This document shows, in pieces, positions 31,999 through 37,049 of a stretch of DNA of 64,000 bases. The position numbers and the translations under genes are program-made. Source of the stretch: Dehalococcoidales bacterium (GTDB lineage: Bacteria > Chloroflexota > Dehalococcoidia > Dehalococcoidales > UBA5760); NCBI GenBank assembly GCA_028716225.1, contig JAQUQE010000004.1, forward strand, positions 1 through 64,000, given 5' to 3'. The notes under the pieces are model-generated. The model searched no databases. It worked only from the letters and a program-made list of their open reading frames with translations, and was not told where the DNA came from. Every line of letters starts with the position of its first letter. Position 1 is the first letter of the stretch.

Positions 31999-32925
31999 AT
32001 GAGTATCATTGTTTCCGGCTCTTTAGCCTACGACAGGATCATGGACTTCCCGGAGTACTTCGCCGACCACATTCTTCCCGATAAACTACACGTTTTGAAC
32101 GTTTCTTTTACCGTGAACGGTATGGTCGAGAGGCTCGGCGGTACCGCGGGCAACATTGCCTACGCCCTCTCTCTACTGGGAGAAAGGCCGATCATTCTGG
32201 CTGCCGTCGGCCGCGATTACCAGAGATACTTCGAATGGCTGGCGGCAAAGAACATCGCCTGCGACGGCATCAGGATTATTGAAGATGAGTTCACCGCCAG
32301 TGCCTACATTACCACCGACCGGGCCGATAACCAGATTACCGGCTTTAACCCCGGTGCCATGAAACACCCTTCCTGCTTTGATTTTGACAGGGTCAATCCC
32401 GGAGACAGTATCGTCATTATAGCCCCGGGTAATCTCGAGGATATGATGAATTACCCGCGGAGCTGTAAGGCCAGAGGAATCGACTATATTTTCGACCCCG
32501 GTCAATCGTTACCGATGTGGAATAGGAAAGAGCTCATTGAGTGTATAGACGGCTCAAGGATACTGATATCCAATGATTACGAACTGGAATTGATTTTTAA
32601 CAAGACCGGCCTTGATAGAAAAACGCTGCTCAAGAAGGTCGAGACTGTTATTACCACACTGGGTGAAATGGGCTCCCGGGTCTGTAGCGGAGACAGTGAG
32701 ATTAACATCCCTGCCGCTAGAGCAAAGGAGGTTTTGGATCCGACCGGTGCCGGCGATGCCTACCGGGCCGGCCTGATTAAAGGATTGATTGAAGGCAGGA
32801 GCATCGAACAATGCGCTAGAATGGGAGGGGTCTGCGCTTCCTTCGCCGTGGAGTACTACGGCACTCAGGAGTACCATTTCAGCCGGCAGGAATTCGAGGA
32901 GAGGCTCGAACAATACCCCGGCTAG
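31999..32925 (+). CDS. PfkB-family carbohydrate/nucleoside kinase
   Basis: A 308-residue ribokinase-like kinase. The N-terminal GSLAYDRIMDFPEYFADH and GGTAGNIAYALSLLG are the substrate-binding PfkB signature. The C-terminal DPTGAGDAYRAGL carries the anion hole and catalytic Asp. The overall pattern (IVSGSLAYDRI with a D-H-I-L loop) resembles adenosine-kinase-like bacterial members, but the substrate is not certain. It stands alone between SDR and nusA. Confidence 0.88.
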   Translation: MSIIVSGSLAYDRIMDFPEYFADHILPDKLHVLNVSFTVNGMVERLGGTAGNIAYALSLLGERPIILAAVGRDYQRYFEWLAAKNIACDGIRIIEDEFTASAYITTDRADNQITGFNPGAMKHPSCFDFDRVNPGDSIVIIAPGNLEDMMNYPRSCKARGIDYIFDPGQSLPMWNRKELIECIDGSRILISNDYELELIFNKTGLDRKTLLKKVETVITTLGEMGSRVCSGDSEINIPAARAKEVLDPTGAGDAYRAGLIKGLIEGRSIEQCARMGGVCASFAVEYYGTQEYHFSRQEFEERLEQYPG

Positions 32926-33014: not shown

Positions 33015-33044
33015 TTGCACACCAAAAGCTGATTATGCTATAAT
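33015..33044 (+). promoter_or_regulatory. Promoter of the nusA operon
   Basis: TTGCAC (33015-33020), an 18-base spacer, and a perfect TATAAT (33039-33044). Transcription would begin near 33051, about 83 bases before nusA. Confidence 0.65.
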
Positions 33045-33069
33045 CCTGTCAGGTGAAGAATGAGTTGCG

Positions 33070-33094
33070 AAGTGGGTTTGAATCCCACTTTTTT
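33070..33094 (+). terminator. Attenuator-like terminator in the nusA leader
   Basis: AAGTGGG (33070-33076) pairs perfectly with CCCACTT (33084-33090) around TTTGAAT, with a T-run to 33094. It lies about 20 nt downstream of the predicted start and 40 nt before the nusA ATG, so it would stop most transcripts after some 45 nt unless read through. The hairpin looks like a tRNA T-arm, but no tRNA body is present. Confidence 0.6.
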
Positions 33095-33121
33095 GTTCTA
33101 TAGGGATAACAAATTGGGGGG

Positions 33122-33133
33122 CTTTAGCTAAAG
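33122..33133. repeat. 12-bp perfect palindrome abutting the nusA start
   Basis: CTTTAGCTAAAG ends at the base before the ATG at 33134. As a perfect palindrome with no loop it is more likely a DNA site or coincidence than an RNA hairpin. A G-run at 33116-33121 precedes it and may act in ribosome binding. Confidence 0.35.
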
Positions 33134-34552
33134 ATGAAAAGCGACTTTGTGCTCGCCATTACGCAGCTCTCAGCCGAGAAGAACCTTCCTCAGGAGGTAG
33201 TCATCAAGGCAGTCGAGACAGCCCTGGTGTCGGCCTACAAGAAGGACAGCTTTGCCGCCAATCAGAATATCTCGGTCAAGATTAATCCCAATACTGGCGC
33301 GGTGCAGGTATGGGCTGAGAAGACCGTGGTCGAGCAGCCATCGGATCACCGCCGTGAGATATCACTGGACAAGGCGAAGGAGATCAAGCCGGATATTAAG
33401 CTGGGCGACACTATCGAGGTTGAGGATACCCCTCACAATGCCGGGCGTATTGCCGCTCAAACAGCCAAACAGGTTATCCTGCAGCGACTTCATGAAGCGG
33501 AGCACAACGCCATATTCGAGGAATACGCTGATAAGGAAGGGGACATTATCACCGGGGTAGTACGGCGTATTGAGCCCAAGCAGGTTTCCATTGATCTGGG
33601 CAGGACGGAGGCAGTACTGCCGGCGGTCGAGCAGATGCATAACGAGAGGTACCGGATGGGGCAGAGAATCAGGGTCTATCTCCTGGAAGTAGCCCAGACC
33701 CCTAGAGGACCCCTGGTGATAGTATCACGTTCTCACCCGAATCTATTGCGGCGTCTTTTTGAATTGGAGGTCCCCGAAATCAGCAGCGGCGCAGTCGAGT
33801 TGGTATCGGTAGCACGCGAAGCCGGCTACCGGAGCAAGGTAGCGGTAGCCGCCCGTCAGGAAGGTATTGACCCGGTCGGCTGCTGTGTCGGACTGCGCGG
33901 TATTCGGATACAGAATATCGTTAATGAGCTAAATGGAGAAAAGATAGACGTCGTAATGTGGAGCATGGATGCCCCTGCTTATATCGCCAGTGCTCTCAGC
34001 CCCGCCAAGGTACTAAGTGTTGAGGTAAATGGAGATGCGGCCACTGCGATTGTTCCTGATGGCCAGCTCTCATTAGCTATCGGCAGAGAAGGGCAAAACG
34101 TCAGGCTGGCTGCCAAACTCACCGGACTGCGTATCGATATCAAGAGCGCTTCGGAGGCAGAGGCAGAAGCACAGGCCAAGCCGCTACCAGCCGAGGCAGA
34201 GGAAGCAGCCGCGGTTGGTGAGAAGATCAGCGGCGAAATACCGGCTATTGAGGAGCCAGCCCGGATAGATGTCGAAGAGGCAGGGGAAGAAGAGGTCGGT
34301 ATACCGCTGGAAGCGATAAGTACCGCCATACCCTCGCCCACTGCCCAGCCCAAGATAGCCGCGGAGAAAGTCCGGATCCGATTTGCCGAAGAGATTGCAA
34401 TTCCACAGCCGGTTAAACCCGGTGCCAAATTAAAGAAGAAAAAGAAAAAGGGTGTTTCCGGCAAGGAAAGCGCCGAGGATGGCATCAAAATCAAGAAACT
34501 GCGCCGGATGCCGGGGTCCATAGAGATTGATGGCGATGACGAAGAGTATTAG
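33134..34552 (+). CDS. nusA: Transcription termination/antitermination factor NusA
   Basis: A 472-residue NusA. The N-terminal RNA polymerase-binding domain is at 1-125. An S1 domain follows with [20 protein letters not shown], then two KH domains with [17 protein letters not shown] and [18 protein letters not shown]. After residue 345 there is a long acidic and proline-rich tail, ending in a Lys-rich segment and [19 protein letters not shown]. No rimP precedes it, unlike most bacteria. A likely autoregulatory attenuator sits in its leader. Confidence 0.95.
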
Positions 34553-34820
34553 TCGGCATATACCGCAACGCACCTGCGTGGCCTGCCGTCAGGTAAAACC
34601 GAAGCGTGAGCTGACCCGGTTGGTCTGTGTTTCCGACGGGGTCATCGAGGTTGATACCAGCGGCAGGAAACCGGGGCGTGGTGCTTATTTATGCCGTAAT
34701 ATCGAGTGTTGGAAAGCCGGGTTAATGAGTAATCGGCTGGACTATACTCTACGAACCACTATTACCAGGGAAAATCGGGAACGGCTTATGAATTATAGCA
34801 AAGACCTTGCGGGAGAATAG
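34536..34820 (+). CDS. ylxR: YlxR-family RNA-binding protein
   Basis: A 94-residue YlxR/DUF448 protein. The signature is [19 protein letters not shown] followed by GRGAYLC, with a nearby second cysteine. It is thought to bind RNA or nucleoid and always lies between nusA and infB. The first ATG in the frame that fits the family is 34536 ([11 protein letters not shown]); ATG 34530 is the alternative. It overlaps the nusA end by 17 bases. Confidence 0.88.
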
Positions 34821-34823
34821 CCT

Positions 34824-36659
34824 ATGGTAAGAGCAAACAATTCGGGCAGCAATCCGGGCCCTGCTGACATCAAGCAGAGTAGTGGCTCACCATCGGCGCC
34901 TTCGCACCCGGTTGAAATTCCAGCCAACATAAGCGTACGGCAGTTGGCTGACCTTCTTCAGACCAGTGAAATAGATATTATTAAACAACTAATGCGAAAT
35001 GGCGTCATGGCCAATATTAACCAGGTAGTCAATTATGAACTGGCAGCGGCTATCGCGACAGGGCTCGGTTACCAGCCATCTCCGCAAGCCCAGACAATTA
35101 GAAAGCCAGGCGGTACTGTTAGCGGGTCTAAGAAAGAACAGGAGCTCCGGAGTAAAGAACTCAAGGGCCTAAAGCTGCGTCCTCCCGTAGTCACCATTAT
35201 GGGACACGTCAATCACGGCAAGACCCGGCTTCTGGACGCTATTCGACAGACCAATGTAATGGAAGCCGAAGCCGGCGGCATTACCCAGCATATCGGTGCC
35301 TATCAGGTGGAGGTCAACGGACAAAAGGTTACCTTTCTGGATACGCCGGGGCATGAGGCTTTCACGGCGATGCGGGCCCGGGGTGCTCAGGTAACCGATA
35401 TCGTTATTCTGGTAGTAGCCGCTGATGATGGGGTAATGCCGCAGACACTGGAGGCTATTGCCCATGCCCGGGCTGCCGGCGTTCCCATAGTAGTAGCCAT
35501 AAATAAGGTTGATAAGCCCGGGGTCAACATCGAGGTGACCAAGCAGCAACTGGCTGATGCCGGTCTGGTTGCCGAGGGGTGGGGGGGAGATACAATCTGT
35601 ATTCCTATTTCAGCAAAAGAAAAAACAGGTATTCATGAGCTACTGGAGAACCTGCTGCTCATCGCTGAGATGGAGGAGTTCAAAGCCGATCCTGCTCAAC
35701 CGGCACTGGGGGTAGTTATTGAAGCCAAGATGGACAAGACCAAAGGGCCTCTGGCTACAGTCTTGATTAATGAGGGAACTCTAAGGCTTGGCGACACCAT
35801 AGTAGTCGGCACAACCTGGGGCAGGGTCAAGGCTATGTTCAACGATATCGGTAAAAGAGTAAGGAAGGCTGAGCCAGCTACCCCGGTAGAGATCCTGGGC
35901 TTAGGTACCGTACCTCAGGTGGGCGACAACCTGAAGGCAGTGTCTAATGAAAGCCAGGCACAGAAACTGATAGAGAAACGGATGGCAGAGAAGAGTCAGG
36001 AGCCGAAGGCAGTTAATCTCAGTAATCTCTACGACCAGATCAGTACCGGAAGGGTGAAGGAACTTAATATTATCCTCAAGGTCGATGTTCAGGGCAGTAT
36101 TGAACCGATCAAGGGCTCCCTGGAAGAACTGGGAACCGAAAAGGTGAAGGTTAGCGTTATTTATAGCGGGACCGGTAATGTTACCGAAAGCAATGTTATG
36201 CTGGCCACTGCCTCCAAGGGAATAATCATCGGTTTTGGCATCGGTACCGAATCGCGGGCGCGGCGTCTGGCTGAGATAGAGGGGGTAAGCATCCGTTCTT
36301 ATGATGTGATCTACGACCTGATCAGCGACGTCAGCAGTGCGCTCAAAGGCATGCTGGAGCCTTCTTATGTTGAGGTCATTGAGGGACGGGCTGAGGTGCG
36401 GAATATCTTTACTGCCGGCAAAAAGGAAAAGGTGGCCGGAACTTATGTGACCGAAGGCAAGGTGAGCCGCGGTGCTTCGGTGAGGCTGCGGCGTGGGGAA
36501 CAGGTGTTATGTGAATCTACCGTCAGCAGTCTCAGGCGCTTTAAGGATGATGTCAAGGAGGTAGCCGCGGGCTACGAATGCGGTCTGGGAATTAAGGACT
36601 TTAACAGTTTTCAAGTCGGAGACGTGTTGGAGTTTTTTAAGACAGAAACCAGACGGTAA
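34824..36659 (+). CDS. infB: Translation initiation factor IF-2
   Basis: A 611-residue IF-2, short because the N-terminal region has only about 120 residues before the G domain. N-terminal IF2_N motif [20 protein letters not shown]. GTPase motifs [38 protein letters not shown]. Domains II-IV follow to the C1/C2 fMet-tRNA-binding end. It begins three bases after the ylxR stop. Confidence 0.96.
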
Positions 36660-36680
36660 CGGCCCTGAGCAGGAAATATT

Positions 36681-37049
36681 GTGACGCATCGTATCGAGCA
36701 AGTGAATAAACTCATGCGTCGTGAGCTCAGTGAATTACTGCAGCACCAGGTTAAAGACCCTCGTCTTGGCGCCCTTATTACGGTGACCGAAGTCTCTACT
36801 TCCCCCGACTTGAAATATGCCAAGGTATTCGTCAGTAATATCGGCAGCGAGGAAGAAAACCGAGAAATACTGGGAGTACTGTCAGCCGCTTCTGGTTATC
36901 TGCGTAATGAGATGTCACAGCGTCTAAAGCTGCGGCGTATTCCTGAGCTCAGCTTCAGATGGGATGATTCCATCAAGCACGGGGATCACATCCTAAAGCT
37001 AATTGAACAGACTACCGGGGATAATACCGCTGAACAGCATAGAGACTGA
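36681..37049 (+). CDS. rbfA: Ribosome-binding factor A
   Basis: A 122-residue RbfA, a 30S maturation factor with a KH-type fold. RIEQVNKLMRRELSELLQHQVKDPRLG, split by family motifs, and the strand VSTSPDLKYAKVFVSN are typical; the end FRWDDSIKHGDHILKLI matches. It starts at GTG 36681 with AGGA seven bases upstream, 21 bases after infB. Confidence 0.93.
   Translation: MTHRIEQVNKLMRRELSELLQHQVKDPRLGALITVTEVSTSPDLKYAKVFVSNIGSEEENREILGVLSAASGYLRNEMSQRLKLRRIPELSFRWDDSIKHGDHILKLIEQTTGDNTAEQHRD

Follow-up and report, generated by a model that had tools for sequence, protein, structure and literature searches.

A conserved hairpin ahead of nusA as a probable promoter-proximal transcription attenuator in Dehalococcoidales, a bacterial order lacking rimP

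A short hairpin with a U-rich tract, placed between a promoter and the nusA start codon in a Dehalococcoidales genome, most probably (probability about 0.74) acts as a promoter-proximal attenuator of the nusA-ylxR-infB-rbfA operon, stimulated by NusA and thereby closing a negative feedback loop. Here, we describe this element in the window, i.e., the whole 64,000-nt stretch of DNA analyzed (contig JAQUQE010000004.1, assembly GCA_028716225.1), and compare it with nusA leaders from the order, the class, and the phylum Chloroflexota, as well as with the rimP and nusA leaders known from other bacteria. From 5′ to 3′, the gap between pfkB and nusA holds the promoter, ~25 nt, the hairpin, a T run followed by GTT, the ribosome-binding region, and a palindrome, and these features and their neighboring genes are as follows.

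31999-32925, plus strand: pfkB, the gene upstream of nusA, on the same strand
33016-33044, plus strand: promoter with −35-like TGCACA (33016-33021), 17-nt spacer, and extended −10, from sequence reading and conservation
33051-33069, plus strand: short 5′ leader ahead of the hairpin, not conserved in sequence
33070-33090, plus strand: putative attenuator hairpin AAGTGGG-TTTGAAT-CCCACTT, from sequence, folding, conservation, and covariation
33089-33097, plus strand: U-rich tract TTTTTTGTT, the predicted release point (RNA of ~45 nt)
33115-33121, plus strand: ribosome-binding region of nusA, G-rich TGGGGGG (GGAGG in most relatives)
33122-33133, plus strand: perfect 12-nt palindrome CTTTAGCTAAAG, adjoining the nusA ATG at 33134, not conserved
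33134-34552, plus strand: nusA, first gene of the putatively controlled operon, with domains NusA_N, S1, and KH_5
34527-34820, plus strand: ylxR, operon gene after nusA
34824-36659, plus strand: infB, operon gene after ylxR
36681-37049, plus strand: rbfA, operon gene after infB (operon span past nusA, 34527-37049)

The extended −10 reads TGCTATAAT (33036-33044), with its hexamer TATAAT at 33039-33044, and this sigma70-type promoter is predicted to start transcription near 33051, which places the hairpin core ~20 nt past the start (<10 nt in some relatives). The 7-bp stem pairs AAGTGGG (33070-33076) with CCCACTT (33084-33090) around the loop TTTGAAT, its core being GTGGG/CCCAC (33072-33076 and 33084-33088), and the T run behind it reaches 33094 before GTT. 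The folding energy of this hairpin is −10.9 kcal/mol, and the 32-nt hairpin segment has a z-score of −3.36, with 1 of 200 shuffles folding as well. An earlier note on this DNA had drawn attention to just this arrangement, a good promoter and then a perfect 7-bp hairpin with a T run ahead of the nusA ATG, and the hairpin and T run can indeed be read directly in the sequence. Across the 4-kb neighborhood, promoter-like matches numbered 2 versus 3.0 expected from shuffled sequence (no excess) and terminator-like matches 6 versus 3.9, likewise within chance, so that the single sequence alone proves little and the support comes from conservation.

Within the order, nusA was located in 145 of 156 genomes and leaders were read from 130, every one of which has the hairpin. 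The core is GTGGG/CCCAC or its G-U form in 129 of these and ATGGG/CCCAT in the remaining one, and the exact pattern GTGGG-loop-CCCAC-TTTT occurs in 120, the other ten having a G-U pair (CCCGC), a longer stem ahead of the T run, or, in that single leader, ATGGG/CCCAT. Among 100 non-redundant leaders, information content is ~2 bits per core column and 1.7 to 2.0 bits in the T run, and columns outside the hairpin and T run mostly stay below 0.5 bits, the exceptions being the start codon and the ribosome-binding site. Conservation extends to the promoter: 122 of 129 order leaders have an extended −10 no more than 75 nt ahead of the hairpin, versus 2 of 120 control windows, which bears out the promoter call of the earlier note. 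The distance between the −10 and the hairpin core (the interval 33044-33072 in the window) has its mode at 27 nt, with 27 to 28 nt in 50 of the 122 leaders, and such a peak despite unconserved intervening sequence possibly marks a spacing constraint. A second cluster of gaps is seen at 13 to 15 nt.

Could the hairpin be a mere terminator of pfkB, the same-strand upstream neighbor whose end is at 32925? We consider this extremely improbable and rejected it, because a conserved promoter separates the hairpin from the upstream gene and the strand of the upstream gene varies, the longest upstream open frame being on the opposite strand in 58 of 120 leaders (same strand in 25, unclear in 37). The earlier note had proposed conservation in relatives as a check and had named an unconserved hairpin, or one that only ends pfkB transcripts, as grounds for abandoning its idea; neither describes what was found.

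Base pairing was assessed in 31 diverse hairpins with loops of the same length, in which 99.5% of cells pair and the two outer stem pairs change on both sides, i.e., covary, and sliding the partner cuts pairing to at most 69%; shuffle-based scores on such a set can be inflated by relatedness. Of the five core pairs, four are invariant here and the fifth changes only from U-A to U-G, but this set was selected for the core, whose invariance is better judged from the order leaders and from a set of 181 hairpins, in which the six positions behind the core are T in at least 90%. A near-invariant core together with a variable loop and covarying outer pairs points to an RNA hairpin whose core sequence matters; judged from these alignments, the element is a real RNA hairpin with a core held fixed in sequence as well as in pairing.

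Two further parts of the earlier note fared less well. It had described the hairpin as mimicking a tRNA T-arm, and the loop TTTGAAT does resemble TTCGAAT, with a weak tRNA-Sec match at the site (12.9 bits, E 8.9). No tRNA was called at the hairpin, however, and loops differ freely between relatives in both sequence and length (3 to 12 nt), on which grounds we dropped mimicry of, or descent from, a T-arm as highly improbable. The palindrome touching the nusA ATG is present as the note stated, but a regulatory role for it is not supported: only 1 of 100 non-redundant order leaders has a perfect ATG-adjoining palindrome, on which grounds we rejected it as a regulatory element, and it is probably not part of the device. 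The T-arm-like loop and the palindrome are confined to this genome and its close relatives.

Beyond the order, the exact pattern was found in 203 of 393 class genomes, and a position check in 53 of them placed 52 matches 20 to 169 nt upstream of nusA on the same strand. The pattern occurs only once in the genome of the window, and the idea of a genome-wide gene set sharing this hairpin was rejected on that account. In 30 class genomes picked from groups where the exact pattern is rare or absent, the hairpin was present in 26, many with altered outer pairs such as GGTGGG/CCCACC, CGTGGG/CCCACG, and GAGTGGG/CCCACTC; one leader has GCGGG/CCCGC (L185) and another a single mismatch (L194). It is missing from the L212 and L213 leaders (family f58, genus g104). 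Another leader of family f58, L199, retains GGTGGG/CCCACC ahead of a nusA whose product seems to have a longer N-terminus. In family f51 genomes such as G167, G292, and G391, both strands match the pattern (AAAAGTGGG...CCCACTTTT), meaning that an A run precedes the hairpin, which could in principle terminate transcription both ways.

The absence of rimP, usually the first gene of this operon and remarked on as missing in the earlier note, extends well past the window. The rimP domain (PF02576) was found in 0 of 61 genomes of the order, compared with 10 of 14 genomes used as controls. Across Chloroflexota, 11 of 101 sampled genomes have it (no match in 90), all from three family groups (f122, f132, and f135). 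Among 29 rimP-less genomes from the rest of the phylum, 26 have the hairpin, and L243 has GCGGG/CCCGC. A strict search did not find the hairpin in L248 and L254. None of the 11 Chloroflexota sampled that do have rimP showed the hairpin ahead of that gene, though one of them (L217) has a GGGGCC/GGCCCT terminator.

These features place the element close to a known family. Among attenuators, the rimP-leader was described as the most widespread one: it is a short terminator that heads the nusA-infB operon at 4 to 130 nt from the gene, carries a strongly conserved GGGc...gCCC motif in its stem, and shows no visible antiterminator, NusA being proposed as its likely regulator (Naville & Gautheret 2010, PMC2965389). 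The nusA element shares with it (PMC2965389) the short hairpin, the G-rich 5′ arm and C-rich 3′ arm, the fixed GGG...CCC (129 of 130 order leaders), the U run (181 hairpins), the lack of a visible antiterminator, and the position at the operon head, though in altered form, since here it stands ahead of nusA and rimP is missing. The fixed core is also lengthened here, to GTGGG/CCCAC. A further difference, the loop-closing c...g pair, is T...T in the window, although many class members do have c...g; in the set of 181 hairpins, only 10 have C...G there (e.g., L190, L198, L202, and L203 in the class), and the pair, printed in lower case as partly conserved in PMC2965389, is a weak criterion.

A model trained solely on Chloroflexota matched ahead of rimP in a MAG labelled Thermoanaerobaculaceae (L013, 37.8 bits), where TATAAT is followed by AAAGTGGGCATCAGCCCACTTTTTTTT; it also matched in a Pelagibacteraceae MAG, there ahead of nusA (L015, 29.3 bits). 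In a Clostridium MAG (L012), GAGTGGG-AACAAAT-CCCACTC stands before rimP, at 14 bits and E 0.88, the low score being due to a poor U run, and E. coli has TGGGCTTTAGGCCCTTTTTTT just before rimP. Within the genome of the window, the next model matches (~26 bits) are AAGCGGGG stems after a sliding-clamp-like gene on small contigs. Near-identical AAGCGGGG...CCCCGCTTTTTTG terminators occur there on contigs C35, C109, C65, and C119 (L257 to L260), that of L257 lying 3′ of a DNA polymerase III beta-clamp-like gene, and these contigs appear to be several copies of related phages or mobile elements.

The Rfam family for the gammaproteobacterial rimP leader (RF01770) is alike in operon position and in its last terminator motif (E. 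coli TGGGCTTTAGGCCC plus T run), but its 102-position model is restricted to the gammaproteobacterial form. It gave no match to the window leader even at E 10 and none in 61 genomes of the order at its cut-off of at least 47 bits; the E. coli positive control scored 102 bits and was the sole match among the loci tested. Filing the element under RF01770 was rejected for want of a match. Two other leaders offer functional parallels. The nusA gene of B. subtilis is autoregulated by termination in its leader that NusA stimulates (reviewed in PMC12288461), which resembles our case in intrinsic termination in the operon leader, predicted here, and in proposed logic but was shown experimentally there, and the B. 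subtilis operon opens with rimP (ylxS) behind a longer leader of 180 nt (PMC2965389). The rimP-nusA leader of Streptococcus agalactiae gives a transcript that stops 31 nt past its start (PMC4448216), an equally very short attenuated transcript for which the same NusA feedback was suggested, in an operon that has rimP, compared with ~45 nt predicted here. Taken on these sequence likenesses, the element is a lineage variant of the known rimP-nusA-type attenuator.

How might it work? We propose that RNA polymerase initiates near 33051, makes a leader of ~20 nt, and transcribes the weak GUGGG/CCCAC hairpin and the U-rich tract, whereupon part of the RNA would be released at ~45 nt. NusA would stimulate termination at this weak hairpin, such that ample NusA would lower operon transcription and scarce NusA would permit readthrough, a negative feedback on nusA, infB, and rbfA. 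A weak stem with an interrupted distal U tract is a feature of NusA- and NusG-dependent terminators (PMC8060035), and the mean folding energy in the order (−10.5 kcal/mol) together with such a tract fits factor-stimulated terminators (PMC8060035). A literature search covering this lineage, including Dehalococcoides, found no usable RNA ends or NusA titration. The central claim of the earlier note, that NusA controls its own operon by premature termination, stands as the best reading, given the conservation and the leaders documented elsewhere.

A hairpin so close to the transcript 5′ end might instead leave transcription unterminated and stabilize the nusA mRNA end or pause the polymerase, and the poor, interrupted U run of two family f87 leaders (L196 and L203), which follows a longer stem (GAGAGTGGG/CCCACTCTC), would suit such a role; in these two the hairpin may serve another role or need a different terminator context. 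For the element at large we think this improbable, since the six-T run after the stem is kept almost as strongly as the core, which a stabilizing hairpin would not need, and the same leader in S. agalactiae yields a short terminated RNA (PMC4448216).

Some doubt attaches to the reader of the stem. Readthrough at the same terminator might be set by NusG, another operon product, or a stem-reading protein, as a core fixed beyond the needs of pairing suggests a reader, and in B. subtilis NusG likewise enhances termination at weak terminators whose U tracts are interrupted (PMC8060035). We regard this as unlikely, though less so than a non-terminating hairpin, because in the other bacteria in which this was tested control lies with NusA (PMC12288461); RimP, for its part, cannot read the stem here, its gene being absent. 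Going beyond control by NusA as such, we tentatively suggest a further idea that has perhaps a lesser chance of being right than wrong: the 5-bp GUGGG/CCCAC stem might be a dedicated signal, read sequence-specifically by NusA or the NusA-RNA polymerase complex, common to several phyla, and retained ahead of nusA in the absence of rimP, with sequence, and not stability alone, carrying the feedback.

Together, these comparisons sharpen a question, as a near-invariant core in ~180 leaders asks why a stem should be fixed in sequence and what reads it. They also indicate that annotation overlooks the element, since the Rfam model recognizes the gammaproteobacterial form only. Finally, they extend a widespread predicted attenuator to a phylum mostly without rimP, and its retention where rimP is mostly missing argues that the element serves nusA and not rimP.
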